A DNA stretch of 64,000 bases from Minwuia sp. (GTDB lineage Bacteria; Pseudomonadota; Alphaproteobacteria; Minwuiales; Minwuiaceae): assembly GCA_029210175.1 (NCBI GenBank), contig JARGPL010000009.1:1-64000 (forward strand), written 5' to 3'. Positions 1 to 10,455 of this stretch are shown in pieces. The notes under the pieces are model-generated. The model saw only the letters and a program-made list of their open reading frames with translations, ran no database searches and had not been told where the DNA came from. The first letter of the stretch is position 1, and each line of letters opens with the position of its first letter. Made by a program: the position numbers and the translations under genes.

Positions 1-63
1 GTGACCCGCCTCGGCAAGCGAGACAATGCGCGTGCGTAGATCAATTGATAGCGGTCTAGCCAT
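1..63 (-). CDS. IS630-family transposase, N-terminal fragment (cut by window edge)
   Basis: An ATG on the minus strand (complement of 61-63) opens a frame that runs off the window, beginning MARPLSIDLRTRIV and continuing SLAEAGH. This matches the usual opening of IS630-type transposases, whose N-terminal helix-turn-helix region often starts MARPLS.DLR.R. A strong ribosome binding site (GGAGGTG, complement of 68-74) lies four bases before the ATG. Only 21 codons are visible, so the DDE catalytic domain and intactness cannot be judged. Family assignment rests on this short N-terminus. Confidence 0.6.
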   Translation of the reverse strand, partial: MARPLSIDLRTRIVSLAEAGH

Positions 64-265
64 GATTCACCTCCAAATAGGGTGAATCACATCCAGACCG
101 ATTTGGGAATCCCCGATTCTGCAATCAGGTCCGATGCTCTAGTTCCCGTTTTATGGCTTATGCCACAATATTTATAATGAATATTATTTGGGTTGCTATT
201 TTGGCAAAACTTCTTGGGGTGGATGCAATAAATCTTTGAATTCAAAATGAATTTCGAGATATCTG
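64..265. other. AT-rich intergenic stretch, probable IS end and flank
   Basis: This stretch separates the transposase start from the fbiC stop and is visibly AT-rich compared with the coding DNA on either side, especially 130-255. It should contain the terminal inverted repeat of the IS630-type element, but the other end lies outside the window so the repeat cannot be defined. A 60-codon minus-strand frame here has no recognisable product and I do not call it a gene. Confidence 0.35.
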
Positions 266-2671
266 TCATGTGTGAGAAAGCCCCGGGCGGACCAGCCGTG
301 TCGGGCGTTGTTCGCGGTCGTACCTTGTGGCCGGTGTATTGACCACGGCGTCCAGCGGGGCGGCCTGGCGGGAGCGTTGGGTGCGGGCCTCCGGTGCTTC
401 GCCGTAGGTGGTGGTGCGCTGGCGGGCGGTACGGCCCGCGGTGTGGATCAACTCATCCATGGCGTGGGGGGGCATTTCCTCCCCATAGGCGGCACCGGCG
501 GCGCGGGTGATGGTTTCGTTCATCAGGGTGCCGCCCAGGTCGTTGACCCCGGCGTCGAGGCAGGCGCGGACGCCCGCCGGACCCATCTTCACCCAGCTTG
601 TCTGGATATTGTCGATCAGCCCGTTGAAGACGAGGCGGGGGATGGCGTGCATCAGCACGGCTTCACGGAACGTCGGTCCCTGACGGGCGTTGCCCTTCAG
701 ATAGATCGGCGCTTCCATGTGCACGAAAGGCAGCGGCACGAATTCGGTGAATCCGCCGGTTTCCGCCTGCAGGTCGCGGATGCTCAACAGGTGCCGCGCC
801 CAGTGCCGGTAATGGTCGATATGGCCGAACATGATGGTCGCCGTGGTGCGGAAACCGGTAGCATGGGCGGCGCGCATGACGTCGAGCCACTGGTCGGAGC
901 GCAGCTTGTCGGGGCAGAGAACCTCACGCACTTCCTCATCCAGGATCTCGGCGGCCGTGCCGGGCAGGGTGCCGAGGCCATGCGCTTTCAGCCGGGCCAG
1001 GAAATCCGGCACCGAGAGGTCCAGCGTCGCCGCGCCCTGCGCCACTTCCAGCGGGGAGAAGGCATGCACGTGCATGTCGGGCGCGGCCTGATGCACCGCG
1101 TCCAGGATGTCGAGGTAGGTCTGGCCGGTATAGTCGGGGTGAATGCCGCCCTGCATGCAGACTTCCGTCGCCCCCCGGTCCCAGGCTTCACGCACCCGGC
1201 GGCGGATCTCGTCCAGGCCGATGTCATAGGGGCGCCCGCGCAGGTTCTCCGACAGCTTGCCCTTGGAGAAGGCGCAGAACTGGCATTTGAAATAGCAGAC
1301 GTTGGTGTAGTTGATGTTGCGGGTGACGACATAGGAAACCGTGTCGCCGCTGACCTGTCGGCGCAGTGCATCCGCAGCCTGCACGACCGCCACGAAATCT
1401 GCATCCCGCGCCCGGAACAGCCGCACGATCTCCGCCGGGTCAAGCCGTTGCCCGGCCAGCGCCCGGTCGATGATCGGTTGCAGGGTTGTCGACGGTTGCA
1501 GGGTGGGCATGTCCGGTACAGCGTCATGTTCGCCCGGGTGCCAGGCGTCTTCGCGCACCAGACCCTGACCATCGACGCGATCCAGCACAGCCTTGTGGAA
1601 TGCCGGATCCAGCCAGCGGTCCGCCTGTTCCAGATGCTCGGGATAGATCGGCAGGCGTTGCGCCAGTCGCTTGCCACCCAGCGCGCTTTCGCGGCGCAGC
1701 AGTTCCAGGTGTGGCCAGGGGGCCTCCGGATTGACGAAATCGGGGGTGACCGGTGACACGCCGCCCCAGTCATCGATGCCGGCGTCGATCAGCCGGGGCA
1801 GCACGCCGGGGCTGAGGTTCGGCGGGGCCTGGATGTGCATGTCCGGCGCAAACATCAGCCGCGCCATGGCGATGGTCCAGCAAAGCTCGTCCAGATCCGG
1901 TTCCGGCGCATCGACCATCTTGGTGCCCGGCTTGGCGCGGAAGTTCTGGATGATGACCTCCTGCAGATGGCCGTGCCGGTCATTCAGGTCACGCAGGGCG
2001 ATCAGCGCGTCCAGCCGCTCCGCCCGTGTCTCGCCGATGCCGATCAGGATGCCGCTGGTGAACGGCACTCCGGCCTCGCCCGCGGCGTCCATGCAGGCGA
2101 TGCGGACGGCGGGGTCCTTGTCCGGTGATCCGAAGTGCGGGCCGCCCCGTTCCATCAGGCTGGGGGCCGTGCCTTCCAGCATGATACCCATGGAGACGGA
2201 GACGGTGCGCAGGTGTGCCAGATCATCCAGATCCATCAGGCCGGGGTTGAGATGCGGCAGCAGCCCGGTTTCACGCCAGACCAGTTCTGCCATGGCATGC
2301 AGATAATCCAGCGTCGTGGCGTAGCCGAGCTGTTCCAGGGCTTCGCGCGCCGCGCGATAACGCAACTCCGGCTTGTCGCCCAGGGTGAACAGCGCCTCGT
2401 TGCAGCCTGCGTCGGCGCCCTTGCGGGCAATCTCCAGCACCTGATCAGGGGACAGGAAGGCGACTTCGCCCTTCTTTGGCGGCTCCGCGAATGTGCAGTA
2501 GTGACAGACGTCCCGGCAGAGGTGGGTCAGCGGAATGAACACCTTGCGCGAATAGGTCACCGTGTCGCCGTGATGGCCATCGCGCCGTTCCGCGGCGCGC
2601 GCCATCAGTCCGTCCAGCGGCAGGGTGGCGAGGGCATCGATGGCCACGCGGTCGGGCAGGCTGCTGCTCAT
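266..2671 (-). CDS. fbiC: F420 precursor FO synthase, CofG-CofH fusion (FbiC)
   Basis: This 801-residue protein carries two radical-SAM halves. The first has CRDVCHYC (Cys52, Cys56, Cys59) and the second CYFKCQFC (Cys459, Cys463, Cys466), both in the CxxxCxxC spacing that binds a 4Fe-4S cluster. The order (CofG-like then CofH-like) and length match FbiC, which makes the deazaflavin FO from tyrosine and 5-amino-6-ribitylaminouracil, the first committed step to coenzyme F420. Its ATG overlaps the stop of the upstream cofC as ATGA, so the two are co-translated. The fused form is known from actinobacteria and some proteobacteria, while archaea use separate CofG and CofH. Both clusters are intact, so it should be active. 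Confidence 0.95.
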   Translation of the reverse strand: MSSSLPDRVAIDALATLPLDGLMARAAERRDGHHGDTVTYSRKVFIPLTHLCRDVCHYCTFAEPPKKGEVAFLSPDQVLEIARKGADAGCNEALFTLGDKPELRYRAAREALEQLGYATTLDYLHAMAELVWRETGLLPHLNPGLMDLDDLAHLRTVSVSMGIMLEGTAPSLMERGGPHFGSPDKDPAVRIACMDAAGEAGVPFTSGILIGIGETRAERLDALIALRDLNDRHGHLQEVIIQNFRAKPGTKMVDAPEPDLDELCWTIAMARLMFAPDMHIQAPPNLSPGVLPRLIDAGIDDWGGVSPVTPDFVNPEAPWPHLELLRRESALGGKRLAQRLPIYPEHLEQADRWLDPAFHKAVLDRVDGQGLVREDAWHPGEHDAVPDMPTLQPSTTLQPIIDRALAGQRLDPAEIVRLFRARDADFVAVVQAADALRRQVSGDTVSYVVTRNINYTNVCYFKCQFCAFSKGKLSENLRGRPYDIGLDEIRRRVREAWDRGATEVCMQGGIHPDYTGQTYLDILDAVHQAAPDMHVHAFSPLEVAQGAATLDLSVPDFLARLKAHGLGTLPGTAAEILDEEVREVLCPDKLRSDQWLDVMRAAHATGFRTTATIMFGHIDHYRHWARHLLSIRDLQAETGGFTEFVPLPFVHMEAPIYLKGNARQGPTFREAVLMHAIPRLVFNGLIDNIQTSWVKMGPAGVRACLDAGVNDLGGTLMNETITRAAGAAYGEEMPPHAMDELIHTAGRTARQRTTTYGEAPEARTQRSRQAAPLDAVVNTPATRYDREQRPTRLVRPGLSHT

Positions 2672-3345
2672 GCGCCGAGGTCCCGTTCACGCTCCGCCAG
2701 CAACCGCTCCGCAATGCCGTTGTCGGTCAGGAACTGGTGCGTGCGCGTGGTGTGCGGCATGTCGAGGAATTTCAGCACATCTTCCGGCGTGTCGATGTCG
2801 AGACCCAGACCGGGCAGGGGGCGGATGTTCGGCGCGATGCCCAGCATCTCGGCTTCCTTCAGATGCGGCATGAAGCTGTGATGCCCGAAATGGAACCTGA
2901 TCAGGTCCGGCGGCGTCGCGACGATGCAATTGGTGCCACGCGTGTCATGCGACGGGCAGAGTGTCACCGACGGCTCCGACGTGCCGTTGAGGGCGATCAG
3001 ACCATCAACCTCGAACGCCGTCAGCGCCGGTGCGTCGCCGGGGATGGTCACGATTCCGCGCCCGCCCTTGCCCAGCACGTGATCGACACCGCGCTGCACC
3101 GCCATCGACTGGCCTTCGTTCAGCGGTTCGGCCAGCAATTCCGCGCCATAGCGTGCCGCGAACTCGGCCGCCTTCGGTTCCCGCGAGACAATGAGAATCC
3201 CGCTGATGCGGCGTGTCTGGACCAGAGCCTCGAACACATCCGTCAGCATGGTTTCGAACAGGCTGCGACGTTCCTGCGGTGACAGTTCACCGGCAAGCCG
3301 CTGCTTCGCCTGATCCAAATTCTTGATTGGCAGAATGATCCACAT
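2668..3345 (-). CDS. cofC: 2-phospho-L-lactate / phosphoenolpyruvate guanylyltransferase (CofC/FbiD)
   Basis: CofC/FbiD enzymes activate phospholactate or phosphoenolpyruvate with GTP, giving the side-chain donor for F420. The protein starts MWIILPIKNLDQAKQRL, the family signature. It has nucleotide-transferase features such as TIPGDAPAL near the middle and LDIDTPEDV near the end. I chose the ATG at 3345 (225 residues) because the 39 extra upstream residues are not conserved-looking and the family is about 210-230 residues long. It is the first gene of a two-gene unit with fbiC (4-base overlap) and is divergent from the F420-type oxidoreductase at 3475. Which three-carbon substrate it uses cannot be told from sequence alone. 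Confidence 0.9.
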   Translation of the reverse strand: MWIILPIKNLDQAKQRLAGELSPQERRSLFETMLTDVFEALVQTRRISGILIVSREPKAAEFAARYGAELLAEPLNEGQSMAVQRGVDHVLGKGGRGIVTIPGDAPALTAFEVDGLIALNGTSEPSVTLCPSHDTRGTNCIVATPPDLIRFHFGHHSFMPHLKEAEMLGIAPNIRPLPGLGLDIDTPEDVLKFLDMPHTTRTHQFLTDNGIAERLLAERERDLGA

Positions 3346-3474
3346 GGACCTGAGATCCACCTTCCTCTGTTTCCCCCCCAGTTGGCGCGGTATCATACAG
3401 GTGGCAAGGGCGGCGTCCATGCGCAGAACCCATCTGTTCGTGCATCCGGCCCCTGCCTGCAATGGGGAGAGAGA

Positions 3475-4533
3475 ATGAAAGTCCAGTTCGCGATGCAGGG
3501 TGTGCCCCTGAAGAATGCCGGAACGTTCGCCAGGTCGATCGAGGATGGCGGCTATGACGGCATCGTCACGCAGGAAAATGCCAATGAGCCGTTCCTGCCG
3601 CTGGCCGTGGCATCGACCACGACGGACACCATCCAGCTGGCCACCGGTGTGGCCATTGCCTTTCCGCGCAGCCCCATGGTGGTGGCGGAGGCGTCATGGG
3701 ACCTGCAGGCCGCATCCGATGGCCGCTTCGTGCTGGGCCTTGGCAGCCAGGTGAAGGGGCACAACGAACGGCGCTTTTCGGTGCCGTGGAGCCCGCCTGC
3801 ACCGCGCCTGAAGGAATACATCCAGTCCCTGCATGCCATCTGGAAATGCTGGTCGGAGGGGGGCAAGGACCTGGCCTTCATCGGCAAGCATTATTCCTTC
3901 ACCCTGATGACCCCCAACTTCACACCCGCCCCCATGGGCCAGGTCGGCGCACCGGTGACGATTGCCGCCGTTGGCCCCGCGATGATGCGCGTGGCGGGCC
4001 ATGTCTGCGATGGCGTCCGCCTGCACGGTTTCTGTACCCGGAAATACATGGAGAACGTCATCATGCCGGAACTGCAGACCGGCTTCGACCGCGGCGGGCG
4101 GTCGCGCGACAATTTCGAGATTTCCGGCGGCGGCTTCATCGCCACCGGCAAGACGGAGGAGGAAGTCGCGAAGATGTTCGAATGGATTCGCTACCGCGTC
4201 GCCTTCTACGGCTCCACCCGGACCTACTGGCCCGTGTTCGAACAGCATGACCTGCTGGACCTGGGGGAGAAGCTGCACCGCATGTCCGTTCAGCAGCGCT
4301 GGGATGAAATGGCCAAGGAAGTCCCCGACGACGTCGTCGATCTGTTCTGCGCCCGGGGCACCTGGGACGTGATTGCCGACCGGATCGCCGACCGCTTCGG
4401 CGGCCTGTCCGATTCCATCGGCTTCCAGACGGCAGAGGGCGAGGAACCCAGCCTGATCGACCGCGGCGTCCTGCAGGACATCCAGCGCATCGACACCACG
4501 TTCAAGGGCTACGACCTGAACCACGCGGCATAG
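3475..4533 (+). CDS. LLM-class F420-dependent oxidoreductase (TIGR03617-like)
   Basis: This 352-residue luciferase-like monooxygenase fold protein starts MKVQFAMQGVPLKNAG. It shows family blocks such as IQLATGVAIAFPRSP (about residue 50), FVLGLGSQVKGHNERRF and GPAMMRVAGHVCDG. Relatives use reduced F420 or FMN to reduce or oxidise small organic substrates; here the position divergent from fbiC-cofC favours F420. The start at 3475 follows a GGGGAGAGAG ribosome binding site six bases upstream; a longer frame from 3382 lacks support. The substrate is unknown. It resembles the group annotated F420-dependent oxidoreductase, MSMEG_2256 family, but this is from memory of the motifs and not from a search. 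Confidence 0.85.
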   Translation: MKVQFAMQGVPLKNAGTFARSIEDGGYDGIVTQENANEPFLPLAVASTTTDTIQLATGVAIAFPRSPMVVAEASWDLQAASDGRFVLGLGSQVKGHNERRFSVPWSPPAPRLKEYIQSLHAIWKCWSEGGKDLAFIGKHYSFTLMTPNFTPAPMGQVGAPVTIAAVGPAMMRVAGHVCDGVRLHGFCTRKYMENVIMPELQTGFDRGGRSRDNFEISGGGFIATGKTEEEVAKMFEWIRYRVAFYGSTRTYWPVFEQHDLLDLGEKLHRMSVQQRWDEMAKEVPDDVVDLFCARGTWDVIADRIADRFGGLSDSIGFQTAEGEEPSLIDRGVLQDIQRIDTTFKGYDLNHAA

Positions 4534-4762
4534 CCAGACTGACAATTCAGGAGTGTGACTGGCGACATCCATTCGCACTCCGATTTGCCATCGACGATCT
4601 GTCTCAAAGAGATGATACGGACTGTAAGTTCCGAATCCCTGGATCAACCGGAACGGATTGCGCCGAGATTTGGCCTTGTTTCCATTGGTGGCAAAGGTCA
4701 GATCTGGAGGCGAGCCAATGTTCCTGGCCAAACACCTGAATCATCGCCGAAAGGGCTGTTGA

Positions 4763-5593
4763 ATGACTGTTGGAGACTATTGCAACAGATATCGCGACTG
4801 GGGTCCCGGTTCATCCCTGCGCAGTGTCTTCCGCGATGTGACGCTCCGCATCCTGTCTGCATCGCAAGGCAAGCCCGCTGAGCCCGCGTTGCGGCTGATC
4901 TATTGCCACTATGTCTTCGATGATCAGGTTGCAGATTTTGAAGGGAAGGTCGAATTCCTGAAGCAGTACGGTCGTTTCATCTCCGGCGATGAGGTGCTTG
5001 AACGTATCGCGCTTGGGACACCAATTGATGAAAATCTGTTTCATCTCTCGTTCGATGACGGCTTTCGCAACATAATTTCCAATGCCCTACCTGTACTCGA
5101 GCGACTCAATGTGCCGTCGACATTTTTTGTCCCGACAGCTGTCATTGGCGCTGAATACGATGTGGTGCGGCACTACTGCCTGAACACGACGCACTACCCG
5201 CGTGTATTTGAAATGGCGTCCTGGGATGACCTGAAGCTTGCGGCTGAAAAGGGGATGACCATAGCTTCGCACACGCGAACACATTCTCGTCTGTCAGAGA
5301 TATCGAACTCCGGCTCACAGCTGGAATATGAGATATCAGGATCCAAGCAGGATATCGAACAGAATCTCGGCATGGAATGCAGGCATTTTTCCTGGCCCTA
5401 TGGTTCGATAGCGGATGCTGATGCCGGCTCCCTGCGCGCAGTCAGGGACGCAGGGTACGACAGCTGTTTTGGAGCGTATCGAGGTCGGGTCGTGCCTGGC
5501 AAGACATCGGCCTTCCACATCCCCAGGCATCATTTCGAACCTCAGTGGCCGCTTTCTCATCTCAAGTATTTCGCATTCGGGGGAAGGGAATGA
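4763..5593 (+). CDS. Polysaccharide deacetylase (NodB domain)
   Basis: This 276-residue protein has a NodB homology domain with the metal-dependent carbohydrate esterase 4 motifs: SFDDG (Asp98-Asp99), SHTRTH (His170, His174), WPYG, and a late PRHH. It should remove an N-acetyl or similar acyl group from a sugar. It has no signal peptide or membrane segment, so it probably acts in the cytoplasm on a nucleotide- or lipid-linked sugar. The stop overlaps the start of the formyltransferase gene as ATGA at 5590, so the two are coupled. Codon use is less GC-rich than flanking genes, which suggests transfer. Substrate is unknown. Confidence 0.85.
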   Translation: MTVGDYCNRYRDWGPGSSLRSVFRDVTLRILSASQGKPAEPALRLIYCHYVFDDQVADFEGKVEFLKQYGRFISGDEVLERIALGTPIDENLFHLSFDDGFRNIISNALPVLERLNVPSTFFVPTAVIGAEYDVVRHYCLNTTHYPRVFEMASWDDLKLAAEKGMTIASHTRTHSRLSEISNSGSQLEYEISGSKQDIEQNLGMECRHFSWPYGSIADADAGSLRAVRDAGYDSCFGAYRGRVVPGKTSAFHIPRHHFEPQWPLSHLKYFAFGGRE

Positions 5594-6375
5594 AGCGGGT
5601 CATTGTCCTGACCACAGGTGGCGGCGGCACGGCAGCAATCTGTCTGCCACGTCTTGTACTCTCTGAGGCCATTGAGGTGGTGGCGGTTGTTCGGGCCAGG
5701 GGCATGAACCCGGACGCGAGTGCGCGGCGACGAAAGAGCAAGTTGCGCAAGGTTCTGCGGATAGGTGTTCTGGGTGCGCTGAACGGCATCCGGATGCGCA
5801 AGTGGTTTCGCCACCGGCACGAGTCGCTGGAATCTGTCTGCGCGTCCGCAGGCGTGCCGCTACATGATGTTCCTTACATCGGGAGTGTTGAAACCGAGCA
5901 GATTGTCCGTCAGGCCAAGGTCGATCTGGGCCTGTCGCTGGGTAATTCGTTCATTCCGAAGCGCATATTCTCGATTCCTGAATATGGCATGCTGAACATG
6001 CACGGGGAACGCCTGCCTGCGTATCAGAACGCGCAAAGCATTATCTGGCCAGTATACAATACGGAAATCACGACTGGCGTGACAGTTCACCGTATTTCGT
6101 CCGTTATCGACGAAGGTGATATCCTGTACTCCGTCGAGTTTCCAATTCAGTTTGGGCCGAGCCTTGAAGAAACAGTTCGCAAGACGCTCATGGACACAAG
6201 AACTCACGTTGTGGAGGCGATTCTTCATTGCTGTGAAAATCTTGATGAACTCTTGAGCACAAGCAAGAAACAGCAGGGTGGTGATCACTATACGACCCCG
6301 ACGTTCTGGCAGTACCTCCGCATGGAGCGCAACAACCGTCGATTCTATAAATTGCATGCAGCAAAGCAGCGGTAA
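5590..6375 (+). CDS. Formyltransferase-fold protein, probable sugar N-formyltransferase
   Basis: This 261-residue protein resembles the catalytic domain of methionyl-tRNA formyltransferase and sugar N-formyltransferases. The catalytic triad is visible: Asn136 and His138 in LNMHGERLP, and Asp174 in VIDEGDIL, with the His-to-Asp distance of 36 residues seen in the family. The usual C-terminal RNA-binding domain of tRNA formyltransferase is missing, so a small-molecule substrate is more likely. It starts at 5590, inside the stop of the deacetylase (GGGGGAAGGGA upstream). Deacetylation followed by formylation of the exposed amine would be a coherent two-step route to an N-formyl amino sugar, as an inference from the pair. 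The following flagellar genes are convergent. Confidence 0.8.
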   Translation: MKRVIVLTTGGGGTAAICLPRLVLSEAIEVVAVVRARGMNPDASARRRKSKLRKVLRIGVLGALNGIRMRKWFRHRHESLESVCASAGVPLHDVPYIGSVETEQIVRQAKVDLGLSLGNSFIPKRIFSIPEYGMLNMHGERLPAYQNAQSIIWPVYNTEITTGVTVHRISSVIDEGDILYSVEFPIQFGPSLEETVRKTLMDTRTHVVEAILHCCENLDELLSTSKKQQGGDHYTTPTFWQYLRMERNNRRFYKLHAAKQR

Positions 6376-6471
6376 TGCCTGGCAGGCGCAAGAACTCTTT
6401 GCCGCGAATCCCCTTGCTGTCGATTGTCGCTGCTGGCGGCGTGAAAAATGCGCACAGCGTCTTCAAGTCTC

Positions 6472-7428
6472 CTACAGCAGGTTCACCAGGCTCAACTGGC
6501 GCATCTGGGCAATCATGCGGAAGCTGGCTTCCAGGGCGACCTGTTGCTGGTTCAGGCGAATGGCGGCTTCGCCGAGATCGGCGTCTTCCTTGTCGGCGAT
6601 CAGTTCGGTCAGGGTGATGCGCTGATCCTCGATGCGCAGCTGCACGTCCTCGACAGTGCGGATGTTCAGGGCATTGTCGGTGGCTGCGGTCTTCATGGTG
6701 TCGATGGCGTTGAGCACCCGGTCCAGTTCGCTCTGCAGGAACTCGGCCTGATTGTTGTCGAGCTGCTGATCCAGGTCCCCGGCGGGGGTGAAGCCAGCGG
6801 CACCGGCCGGCAGGGTGCCCGCGTCGAACATCATGATGCGCTGCATGGCGTGCAGCAGGTCTTCGCCCACCTGGGACGCGGTGTTGCCGACGGTGACGGT
6901 GGTGCGTTCATCCAGGCGGATGCTGTTCGGGTCGCCCTGATCGTTGAAGAACGATCCGGTGGGCGGTTCCGCCGTGGCCAGCAGCTCCGCCGTGGTCTCG
7001 ATCGCCATGGGCGGCTGGTCGCTCTGGCTGCCGCCGAACAGGAAGCGGCCCTCGAAGCGGGTATTCATGATGGATGACGCCTGCTGGAACAGGCTGTCGA
7101 TCTCCGTCACCAGGCCTGTGCCGTCGCTGGTGCCGCGCGCGGTGAACAGCGCATCCCGCAGCCGGTTGCCGATGCCTTCCAGCTCCGTCAGGCTGTGGTC
7201 GAAGGCGTTCAGCCGACCGGCGATCGACTTGTTGCTGTCGTAGAAGCCATCCAGCCGGTTCATGATCGAATGCGAACTCAGCAGCGATGACGTGCCCGCG
7301 CCGAAGCCCTTCACGTCATCATACCTGGTGCCGGTCGAGACCTGACGCTGGGTGTTCACCAGATCCGTCTGTTGACGCAACATCTGCTGGATCATGGCTT
7401 CGCTGTTACCGAAGGTTCCGATGCGCAT
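6472..7428 (-). CDS. flgL: Flagellar hook-filament junction protein FlgL (HAP3)
   Basis: This 318-residue protein has the flagellin-like N-terminus (MRIGTFGNSEAMIQQMLRQQ, then VSTGTRYDDVKGFGAG) and a C-terminal helical region ending RMIAQMRQLSLVNLL. Both belong to the coiled coils that pack in the filament axis. FlgL joins hook to filament together with FlgK and is exported by the flagellar type III system. The ATG at 7428 is preceded by AGGAG. The gene lies 19 bases after flgK in the same direction, so they form one transcript. Confidence 0.93.
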   Translation of the reverse strand: MRIGTFGNSEAMIQQMLRQQTDLVNTQRQVSTGTRYDDVKGFGAGTSSLLSSHSIMNRLDGFYDSNKSIAGRLNAFDHSLTELEGIGNRLRDALFTARGTSDGTGLVTEIDSLFQQASSIMNTRFEGRFLFGGSQSDQPPMAIETTAELLATAEPPTGSFFNDQGDPNSIRLDERTTVTVGNTASQVGEDLLHAMQRIMMFDAGTLPAGAAGFTPAGDLDQQLDNNQAEFLQSELDRVLNAIDTMKTAATDNALNIRTVEDVQLRIEDQRITLTELIADKEDADLGEAAIRLNQQQVALEASFRMIAQMRQLSLVNLL

Positions 7429-7447
7429 GGCGTGGCTCCTCCCTTTC

Positions 7448-9538
7448 CTAGATTCTCAACAGGGCGTCGAACATTTCCTGCGTCGCGGAGATCACGCGGG
7501 CGGAAGCGTTGAACGCTGTCTGGAAGGTGATGAGATTGGTCATTTCCTCGTCCAGGTTGACCCCGGACACTTCGCTGACCCGCTGGCTCAGTTCGTCGCG
7601 CAGGGCCAGGCGATCCTCGGCCCGGACGGAAATGTCCTTGGCGGCCTGGCCGGCGCGGCCCAGGAACTCGGAGCTGATTTCTGACAGTGTTGCGGTCATG
7701 GCAGGCAGGCGACCCGCGCCGTCAAACCGGGCCTCCGCATTGCCAAGGGTCTGCAGCGCCTGCGCGCCGGCGTTGTCACCGGCACCGATGGCGGGGCTGC
7801 GCGAAGCGTCGATGCTGGCCAGCGAGATGCCTTCCGGATTGCCCGCAATGGCTGATGCGACGGAGAACCCTGACGCGATACTGGCCACGGATGCGCTGCC
7901 AAGCCCGAACAGGTTCGCCGCCGAGGCGCCGGTTGCACCACGCGCGGTATTGTCGGCCAGAACCTCCACCCGGAAGCTGCTCGCCACGCTCGCCGGCGTG
8001 GCCGAGAGCTTGCCCGCACTGTCGAGGCTGAAATCCACCAGCCCGGAGAAGCTTGTGTTCAGCTGCGTGACCAGATCCCCGACCGTGCCGCCAATGGCCG
8101 CCATGTCGATGGTGGTGGTGATGGCACGCTGGTTGGCGGGGCCGACCAGGCTGAGGGTCATTTCGCCGGTGAAACCATGCCCTGTCGCTGCCGTCAGACC
8201 GGTGTCGAAAGTCGGGCCGGTGCCGGTACGCACCAGATCGTTCAGTCCGAAGCGGTGCGCAAATCCGCGACCGCCATTGTCGGACGGTGTCGTTGCATCC
8301 TGCTGAATGGCGACACCGCTTGCCGCACCGGCGGCGCTGAAGGTCATGGTGCCGTTGGTCAGGCTGAGGGTGCCCTGTCCGCCCAGACCGGTGTTCACCG
8401 CGTTGATCGCGTCCTGCACCGTGCCGCCGATGGCGCCGAAGTCGATGGTCGCGGATGCGGTGACCGCGTTGTTGCCGTCGAAGGCATGGAACGTGGCGAT
8501 GCCGGTGAAGCCGTGCGGGTCCGTCGCCAGTGCGCCGGTGTTGCGCCCGACCATCTCGGCGGGGGGCGGGACAGCCGTGAAATCATTGTGGATGCGGTTC
8601 AGCTCGTCCGCGACATGCCCGGTCATCGCGCCCAGTTCCACGGCGAGATCGTTCAGTGTCGTGTCGCGAATGTCCATCAGCCCGCGCAGGGTGCCGGACC
8701 GGATGCTGCTGTCGATGGTGCCGTTGACGGCAGTGGCCTGGCCCGTCGCGGAATCAACCCGTTCTATGGTCAGTTGCGGAAAGGTCTGTCCGGCGTTGGC
8801 CGCGTCATTCGGCACATGCACGATGCGCCGCGCCGCCTGGTCGACCAGGGGCAGACCGGCATTGGTGGATACTGCCAGCTTGCCCTGGCCCAGGTCGAAC
8901 GTGCGGATGTCGATCAGTTCACCCAGTTCATCCAGCTTCCGCGCCCGCTGATCCAGCAGGGCATTGTTGTCCGAGCCTTCCAGCCGCTTGCCGATGTCGC
9001 GGTTGAGGCTGTCGATCTGCGCGATCAGCTCATTGATGGTATCGACCGTGTCGCCGACCCGCTGATCGGCCTGCCGCTGCAGGTCGCGCGCGCCGCTGGC
9101 CACCAGATCGATGTCTTCGTCGAGGCGCTGCAGCGCATCCAGCGTCGCGTTGCGCGTCGCCGTGGTTTCGGGGTTGTTGGCCAGCGCTGCTGCGGCGTTG
9201 AAGACATCATCCAGCCGGGACACCAGCGTGCGGTCCTGCGTCGGGTCCCCCAGCAGGGCTGTCATCTGCTGCTGCAACTCGTCCATGGCCTCGAACCGAC
9301 CGGACTCCGCAGCGGCAATCCGGAATTCCTGGGACAGGAAGCTGTCGGCGATCCGACGTACTTCGCTGACCTGAACGCCGGTGCTCTGGCCACCAATGAC
9401 CCGGTTGTCCTGCCGCGCTTCCTTGCGGGCGTAGCCTTCCGTGTTCACGTTGGCGATGTTGTCGGACACGGTCGAAAGGCCGACCTGGGCGGCCAGAAGA
9501 CCACTTGTCCCGGTGCTGAGAATGCCGTTCAGGCTCAT
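7448..9538 (-). CDS. flgK: Flagellar hook-associated protein FlgK (HAP1)
   Basis: This 696-residue protein begins MSLNGILSTGTSGLLAAQVGLSTVSDNIANVNTEGYARKE (given here only as the rod/hook N-terminal pattern around NIANVNTEGYARK). It ends VNLDEEMTNLITFQTAFNASARVISATQEMFDALL-like, the typical C-terminal motif of flagellar axial proteins. The middle, about 320-600, contains repeated Gly/Ala/Thr-rich beta segments including two related blocks built around HGFTG. FlgK is the first hook-filament junction protein. It is upstream of flgL in one operon; an alanine-rich, variable middle is normal for the family. Confidence 0.93.
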   Translation of the reverse strand: MSLNGILSTGTSGLLAAQVGLSTVSDNIANVNTEGYARKEARQDNRVIGGQSTGVQVSEVRRIADSFLSQEFRIAAAESGRFEAMDELQQQMTALLGDPTQDRTLVSRLDDVFNAAAALANNPETTATRNATLDALQRLDEDIDLVASGARDLQRQADQRVGDTVDTINELIAQIDSLNRDIGKRLEGSDNNALLDQRARKLDELGELIDIRTFDLGQGKLAVSTNAGLPLVDQAARRIVHVPNDAANAGQTFPQLTIERVDSATGQATAVNGTIDSSIRSGTLRGLMDIRDTTLNDLAVELGAMTGHVADELNRIHNDFTAVPPPAEMVGRNTGALATDPHGFTGIATFHAFDGNNAVTASATIDFGAIGGTVQDAINAVNTGLGGQGTLSLTNGTMTFSAAGAASGVAIQQDATTPSDNGGRGFAHRFGLNDLVRTGTGPTFDTGLTAATGHGFTGEMTLSLVGPANQRAITTTIDMAAIGGTVGDLVTQLNTSFSGLVDFSLDSAGKLSATPASVASSFRVEVLADNTARGATGASAANLFGLGSASVASIASGFSVASAIAGNPEGISLASIDASRSPAIGAGDNAGAQALQTLGNAEARFDGAGRLPAMTATLSEISSEFLGRAGQAAKDISVRAEDRLALRDELSQRVSEVSGVNLDEEMTNLITFQTAFNASARVISATQEMFDALLRI

Positions 9539-9780
9539 GACTGCGCCTCCTCGTCAACGGCAAGCCTTGCCGGGTAACGGGCAGGGATAACAGCCATGCG
9601 GCAAATCCTGCCGACGTGTGTCACTGGCGTATCGCGATGGTCAACTATATGAAATGCCAACATTTTTTCACCAATCAGGCTTCCGACAACCATGTCTGTC
9701 CGTGTGTTCATGCAAGGGCTGTTGCACGCGTTGGACCAGTTGCGGTGCCGTGGGGGTGAAAGAACCGGCGGGCTGCCGGT

Positions 9781-10395
9781 TCAGCCTGTTGGCGGGTTGG
9801 CGATTGTCGCCCTGATCAGGGGCAGCAACCGATCATGCTGAACGGTCAGCAGGGCATCATGGTGCGCTTCGCCGAACATGTTGCGCAGCGTCGGGCCGGA
9901 AATGGCGAAATAGTTGATCGCGCCCAGCAGCTGGTAGACCGCAGCCAGCGCGCTCGCTGGCGCGACGTCCGCCCAGCCCGGAACCTGGCGCAGCCGGTTG
10001 GCGAGTGCTTCCAGGAACGGTTTCAGATACCAGGTCCCGGCCGTGTCAGCGCGTCGCCGGTTGTCCAGCAGTTCGCGCATCAGTAGCTGCGTTTCCATCT
10101 GATCGCGCTGCGCGCGGTCGGCCAGATCCAGGATCAGATGTTCGAAGTGCCGCCCCGGTTGATCATCGGTGCCGGGCGCGCGGGTCGCCTGTTCGGTGAA
10201 ACCGGCGGAAATGCGCTGCAGCACTTCGGCGTAAAGCTTTTCCTTGCTGGCGAAGTGGTGCAACAGCGCCTGTTTCGTCAGGCCGAGTTCATCGGCGATG
10301 CGGGCGATGCTGACACCATAGAAACCGGACTCGGCGAACAGGCGGCCGGCAGCCTGCAGCAGCTGTTCACGTGTGTCCTGCCTGTCCCGATCCAT
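9781..10395 (-). CDS. TetR/AcrR-family transcriptional regulator
   Basis: This 204-residue protein has the TetR N-terminal DNA-binding domain: REQLLQAAGRLFAESGF, then IARIADELGLTKQALLHHFASKEKLY with the recognition helix TKQALLHHF. The C-terminal part is a ligand/dimer domain of unknown specificity. It is transcribed divergently from the Rieske oxygenase at 10521. The space between them holds two matching palindromes of the type bound by TetR proteins, so it very probably represses that gene and itself until its ligand appears. Confidence 0.9.
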   Translation of the reverse strand: MDRDRQDTREQLLQAAGRLFAESGFYGVSIARIADELGLTKQALLHHFASKEKLYAEVLQRISAGFTEQATRAPGTDDQPGRHFEHLILDLADRAQRDQMETQLLMRELLDNRRRADTAGTWYLKPFLEALANRLRQVPGWADVAPASALAAVYQLLGAINYFAISGPTLRNMFGEAHHDALLTVQHDRLLPLIRATIANPPTG

Positions 10396-10455
10396 TGCGG
10401 CGCTCCAAGATGTGGCGGGGCCGTGGCGCGCTGTCGAACGCCGCTTGCCACAGTC

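Follow-up and report, generated by a model that had tools for sequence, protein, structure and literature searches.

A predicted coenzyme F420 pathway encoded at two unlinked chromosomal loci in the alphaproteobacterial genus Minwuia

Analysis of a 64,000-nucleotide stretch from Minwuia sp. (Alphaproteobacteria; Minwuiales; Minwuiaceae; assembly GCA_029210175.1, contig JARGPL010000009.1, positions 1 to 64,000), hereafter the window, together with the other contigs of the same genome and the genomes of its relatives, suggests, with a probability of about 90%, that two unlinked chromosomal loci together encode a complete and vertically kept pathway for coenzyme F420 in this alphaproteobacterial genus. 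Judged from its gene content, the bacterium very probably makes F420, an uncommon type of electron carrier. The chemistry of the enzyme families involved is established. Applied to the genes found here, FbiC of the window locus would make the deazaflavin FO, and CofC, encoded beside it, would activate a three-carbon phospho-acid with GTP; at the other locus, CofD would join the activated phospho-acid to FO, CofE would add glutamates, and Fno would reduce F420 with NADPH. Luciferase-like (LLM-type) enzymes, probably including the one encoded divergently in the window, would then take F420H2 for hydride transfer.

The three genes of the window locus are all open from start to stop and their products each exceed curated NCBIfam cut-offs, which bears out the earlier note in describing fbiC, cofC/fbiD and a divergent LLM-class gene as intact at this place. 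The fbiC gene (positions 266..2671, minus strand) encodes a fused CofG-CofH FO synthase of 801 aa. The protein scores 1132 bits against NF006687, the model of the fused CofGH enzyme (cut-off 1018), it passes both half models, those of CofG and CofH (TIGR03550 and TIGR03551), and it contains two radical-SAM CX3CX2C motifs, CRDVCHYC and CYFKCQFC. Its identity to the FbiC proteins of five relatives in the genus is 90-76%. The cofC gene (2668..3348, minus strand), overlapping fbiC by 4 bases, encodes a 2-phospho-L-lactate (or PEP) guanylyltransferase of 226 aa, with 128.8 bits against TIGR03552 (cut-off 105). The LLM gene (3475..4533, plus strand) encodes an oxidoreductase of 352 aa with a predicted dependence on F420; it reaches 369.8 bits against TIGR03617, a family named F420-dependent (cut-off 278).

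Since the ATG starts of the LLM gene and cofC both line up in five relatives of the genus, the ATG at 3475 appears more likely than the mechanically called TTG at 3382 for the former, and the ATG at 3348 more likely than the TTG at 3462 for the latter. The 126 bp between the two genes (3349..3474) are presumed to hold both promoters of the divergent pair. When this region was aligned with those of the five relatives, it was found to be alike in three of them, and longer and less alike in genomes G003 and G007.

The genome of this strain comprises 4,085,462 bases in 43 contigs and is 99.99% complete. It contains one CofD-family match and one F420-ligase match, which lie together on another contig (C34) in the cluster fno-cofE-cofD (L003, 10304-7898, minus strand). 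CofD scores 269 bits against TIGR01819 (cut-off 257), and its identity as a YvcK relative was ruled out, the YvcK model TIGR01826 giving 21 bits of the 196 needed. CofE, a protein of 257 aa, consists of a single domain without the reductase domain; it scores 252 bits against TIGR01916 (cut-off 181) and 253.5 bits against NF009809, below the cut-off of 274. Fno passes TIGR01915. The earlier note had placed the later steps, CofD/FbiA and CofE/FbiB, outside the window and had proposed a search of the genome for them; since both genes are present, on another contig and together with fno, its reading came through that search at the gene level.

As predicted from CofC, the product would be ordinary F420, with a lactyl linker derived from 2-phospho-L-lactate (2-PL) or PEP, and not 3PG-F420. 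Among solved structures, CofC comes closest to the 3PG guanylyltransferase 7p97 (E 2.8e-25), while FbiD (6bwg) matches at E 4.3e-12, and the substrate and metal residues K17, D116, T148, S166, D188 and D190 (FbiD numbering) are kept. According to Hasan et al. 2022 (PMC8764529), CofC enzymes that use or tolerate 3-PG have a diagnostic Ser or Thr at position 162 (Mycetohabitans numbering), 2-PL is the best substrate of CofC from Paracoccus denitrificans and Oligotropha carboxidovorans, and PEP turnover is 3.5-30% across the CofC enzymes tested. The window protein has Gly at this position, as FbiD does, which underlies the prediction of ordinary F420 and disfavours 3PG-F420. Among 66 CofC proteins from the loci compared (67 found, minus the fused one of locus L054), position 162 is Gly in 52, Asp in 13 and Asn in one, and Ser or Thr in none. 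At position 92 (FbiD numbering), the window protein has Gln; of the 66 proteins, 46 have Leu here and nine have Gln, five of these nine coming from the genus.

If PEP is the source of the linker, a dehydro-F420 reductase is needed. A search for this enzyme (FbiB C-terminal/FbiE, TIGR03553) found nothing in the strain's own genome at E<=1e-5, and among the nine genomes of the order none exceeded the cut-off, with weak matches in three (G003, G007 and G001); of 14 control genomes, seven had a match, likewise none over the cut-off. These results are suggestive only, hinting that the lactyl-linker step may not be fully accounted for in this genome. Another form of the linker, as in 3PG-F420 or unreduced dehydro-F420, would agree with the missing FbiB C-terminal/FbiE match and with a 3PG enzyme being the best solved relative of CofC. 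It is nevertheless improbable, given the Gly where 3PG enzymes have Ser or Thr and the preference of the Paracoccus and Oligotropha enzymes for 2-PL (PMC8764529), and the FbiE miss says little when no control genome passes the cut-off and G003 and G007 show weak matches. Returning to the lactyl linker, the lack of a reductase domain in CofE and of any FbiE-like protein found in the strain's genome leads to the tentative suggestion that the genus might make this linker through a so far undescribed enzyme, which would either supply 2-phospho-L-lactate or reduce dehydro-F420 without being related to FbiB/FbiE. The 3PG-F420 system of Mycetohabitans (Paraburkholderia) rhizoxinica, to whose type of enzyme 7p97 belongs, differs in two respects: its diagnostic Ser162 is replaced by Gly here, and ten F420-named LLM proteins are encoded here, whereas, according to a 2021 review (PMC8498797), the rhizoxinica genome encodes no homologue of any known F420-dependent enzyme.

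Conservation of the two loci was followed in nine genomes sampling the order, seven from the genus and one each from two other genera. FbiC was found in six of the seven genus genomes (E<=1e-100) and CofD in all seven (E<=1e-20), and at these thresholds neither protein had a match in the single genomes of two other genera of the family. In the seventh genus genome, G006, the LLM gene and about 137 codons of cofC are followed by the contig end. Every genus genome whose assembly reaches this side, six in all, shows the divergent LLM/cofC-fbiC order; in G008 only some 60 bases precede cofC on the contig. The distance between cofC-fbiC and fno-cofE-cofD is about 0.7 Mb in G004 and 2.0 Mb in G003, each a single-contig genome, so the division into two loci is real and no effect of assembly. 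The LLM gene lies beside flgL/flgK in four of the six genomes (the window genome, G004, G005 and G006), with inserted genes intervening in the window and G005, and the stretches taken from G003 and G007 had no flgL/flgK match.

The earlier note had described an F420 module in a proteobacterial chromosome, a patchy trait in this group, and the distribution agrees: of 385 Alphaproteobacteria genomes in the sample, 59 have FbiC (E<=1e-150), a count that includes the strain's own genome and three of the genus, and 55 of them exceed the curated cut-off. On the FbiC tree (FastTree, 115 rows, no bootstrap; L132 omitted for its shortness, duplicate genus loci entered once), the six genus rows form one clade (support 100, starred) in the half that holds alphaproteobacterial rows and some Acidobacteriota, Chloroflexota and others. 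The nearest rows outside the genus are two genomes of the same class (support 92, not starred), both showing cofC-fbiC alone, with 9 kb upstream in one and under 5 kb to the contig end in the other. On the tree of CofD and CofE (FastTree, 88 rows, no bootstrap; rows with stops or odd lengths omitted), the seven genus rows form one clade (support 100, starred) inside a mostly alphaproteobacterial fork (support 98, starred). The named rows hold no Actinobacteria or Archaea, and the trees speak only to shallower history. At that depth, the FbiC phylogeny that the earlier note had proposed places the genus among alphaproteobacterial rows, with no sign of recent import.

The same note had taken an adjoining IS630-type transposase as a hint of mobility. 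The start of a transposase is indeed present, but it comprises the first 21 codons only, cut by the contig end at base 1, and the IS630 name is weakly supported: the piece matches 24 plasmid records, and seven of the ten listed are annotated IS630, with E of 2-4. A contig ending in a repeat is a simple account of this fragment. Recent acquisition of the F420 genes as a mobile module would fit the transposase start at the contig edge and the lack of fbiC and cofD matches in the single genomes of the two other family genera, but it is very unlikely and was rejected on the conserved gene order and the trees: the order is shared across the genus, in four of the six genomes next to the same flagellar genes, and the genus forms one clade among alphaproteobacterial rows on both trees. 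The GC content of positions 1-4000 (61-66%) is also like that of most of the window. The vertically kept pathway may have been gained long ago, when the genus arose, or its genes may have been lost in the two sister genera. Least probable of all, and rejected, is a locus that makes FO only, for example as a photolyase antenna. FbiC alone does yield FO and the window lacks CofD and CofE, but the genome as a whole has cofC, cofD, cofE and fno, and all four are conserved throughout the genus.

Gene order was compared with that of relatives by tblastn matching, in stretches of which some are short. The named FbiC loci are the best 80 of 589 relatives, with FbiC proteins 60-68% identical to that of the window. 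Among these best 80, the commonest order is fno-cofE-cofD-cofC-fbiC (50 loci); eight more lack only fno in the stretch, two have other orders, 17 have fbiC with none of the other four genes, and three have cofC-fbiC only. Of the 59 class genomes in which FbiC was found, 40 supplied a locus for the comparison, and no fewer than three of these loci duplicate named records. The five genes stand in the common order in 13 of these 40, and the others are permuted or partial; cofC-fbiC is found alone in five, three of which have at least 8 kb on both sides (L182, L186 and L197). The split in the genus is most simply read as a rearrangement of the common operon; since cofC-fbiC without the rest also occurs elsewhere in the class, it is not unique to the genus. 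The proteobacterial F420 operon, seen in this comparison in Rhodospirillaceae MAGs, Kaistia, Zhongshania and others shares the same five genes, with fused FbiC, single-domain CofE and Fno, whereas in Minwuia fno-cofE-cofD and cofC-fbiC are set apart and the LLM gene is divergent from cofC.

The linkage of the LLM gene to F420 genes is not strict, since six of 20 selected named genomes with FbiC have no LLM match (E<=1e-60), and a 40% relative of the window LLM is encoded in G002, where neither FbiC nor CofD was matched. In the 14 selected genomes that have a match, six matches reach 55-60% identity. In L005, L006 and L009, the gene of a close LLM homologue (at least 48%) points towards the 3' end of fbiC.

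The genome of the strain contains 21 luciferase-like (PF00296) hits, of which 20 were scored, 18 as domain pieces, leaving out one with an in-frame TGA (L152). Half of the 20 pass cut-offs of F420-named models (three TIGR03559, two TIGR03617 and five TIGR03619). Two others pass TIGR03860 and TIGR03558 and were taken as FMN-type, and eight pass no model. On these family assignments, the window LLM is a candidate F420-using enzyme, and the position of its gene beside cofC-fbiC lends this indirect support. One further match, to PF04075 (F420H2 quinone-reductase-like), is present in the genome, and this piece had no NCBIfam model match at E<=1e-20. No LLM protein among the 20 scored exceeded the cut-off of an Fgd model. 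Fno is the only F420-reducing enzyme identified in the genome, which points to NADPH and suggests that it would be the main F420 reductant.

Compared with the actinobacterial system of Mycobacterium (FbiA, FbiB, FbiC and FbiD), the enzymes are homologous, and the fused FbiC and the Gly at the CofC/FbiD specificity position are held in common; in contrast, CofE here has no reductase domain, a match to a separate FbiE was not found in the strain's own genome, and Fno is present with no Fgd assignment among the 20 scored LLM proteins. In the 2021 review, predicted alphaproteobacterial F420 producers are stated also to encode Fgd, unlike the present genome as judged at model cut-offs only (PMC8498797). 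The same review reports F420 in trace amounts in two tested Alphaproteobacteria, and on this ground its role in the genus may be minor. F420 genes are a known, already described and patchy trait of part of the Alphaproteobacteria, and that principle is unchanged; what is new is one more genus with the full standard F420 gene set among the alphaproteobacterial carriers. The TIGR03617 LLM, a candidate F420 enzyme whose gene is tightly linked to cofC-fbiC, could offer a handle on the role of F420 in Gram-negative bacteria, from which, by the account of that review, no F420-dependent enzyme had yet been studied experimentally (PMC8498797).

Some other features of the loci were observed. Between the LLM gene and flgL, the window contains an additional segment (4534-6471) with genes for a polysaccharide deacetylase (4763-5593) and a formyltransferase (5545-6375). 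Their GC3 is low, 0.58-0.61 against mostly 0.7-0.87 in the other calls, and the gap between the LLM gene and flgL is only about 70 bp in G006 and about 110 bp in G004. The two genes appear to have been inserted in this strain or its lineage and might serve a surface or flagellar glycan. At the same site, G005 carries a TetR-like regulator and an enoyl-CoA-hydratase-like frame, judged by eye (L090, 13907-15450), which suggests a position open to insertion. Three proteins were also scanned with PADLOC, and the single match, to an oxidoreductase model, was weak and uninformative.

In Seongchinamella unica (L054, about 7200-10412), cofC and fbiC seem to share a single open reading frame of 1071 codons, which may represent a CofC-FbiC fusion; its 'CofC' was dropped as a query after it had mislabelled loci, and was also removed from the residue comparison. 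Several class loci likewise show open frames of more than 1000 codons at FbiC. A MAG named Klebsiella pneumoniae (L080) carries cofE-cofD-cofC-fbiC and groups with an unclassified Pseudomonadota MAG; its bin is most likely mislabelled or mixed.

At the second locus, a DUF4915 gene (TIGR03032; L003, 10374-11477) lies directly upstream of fno in all seven genus genomes. It was considered as a further F420 gene and treated as a local neighbour, since the 80 named FbiC loci, some of whose stretches are short or end before fno, gave no hit to it at E<=1e-5. About 4-8 kb from cofD (L003, 269-3617) are genes for an MttB-like methyltransferase that falls below the model cut-off, a putative corrinoid protein and a DUF1638 protein. 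A further LLM gene lies near them, and their order is kept in G004, G005 and G008, in the latter two within the stretches taken.
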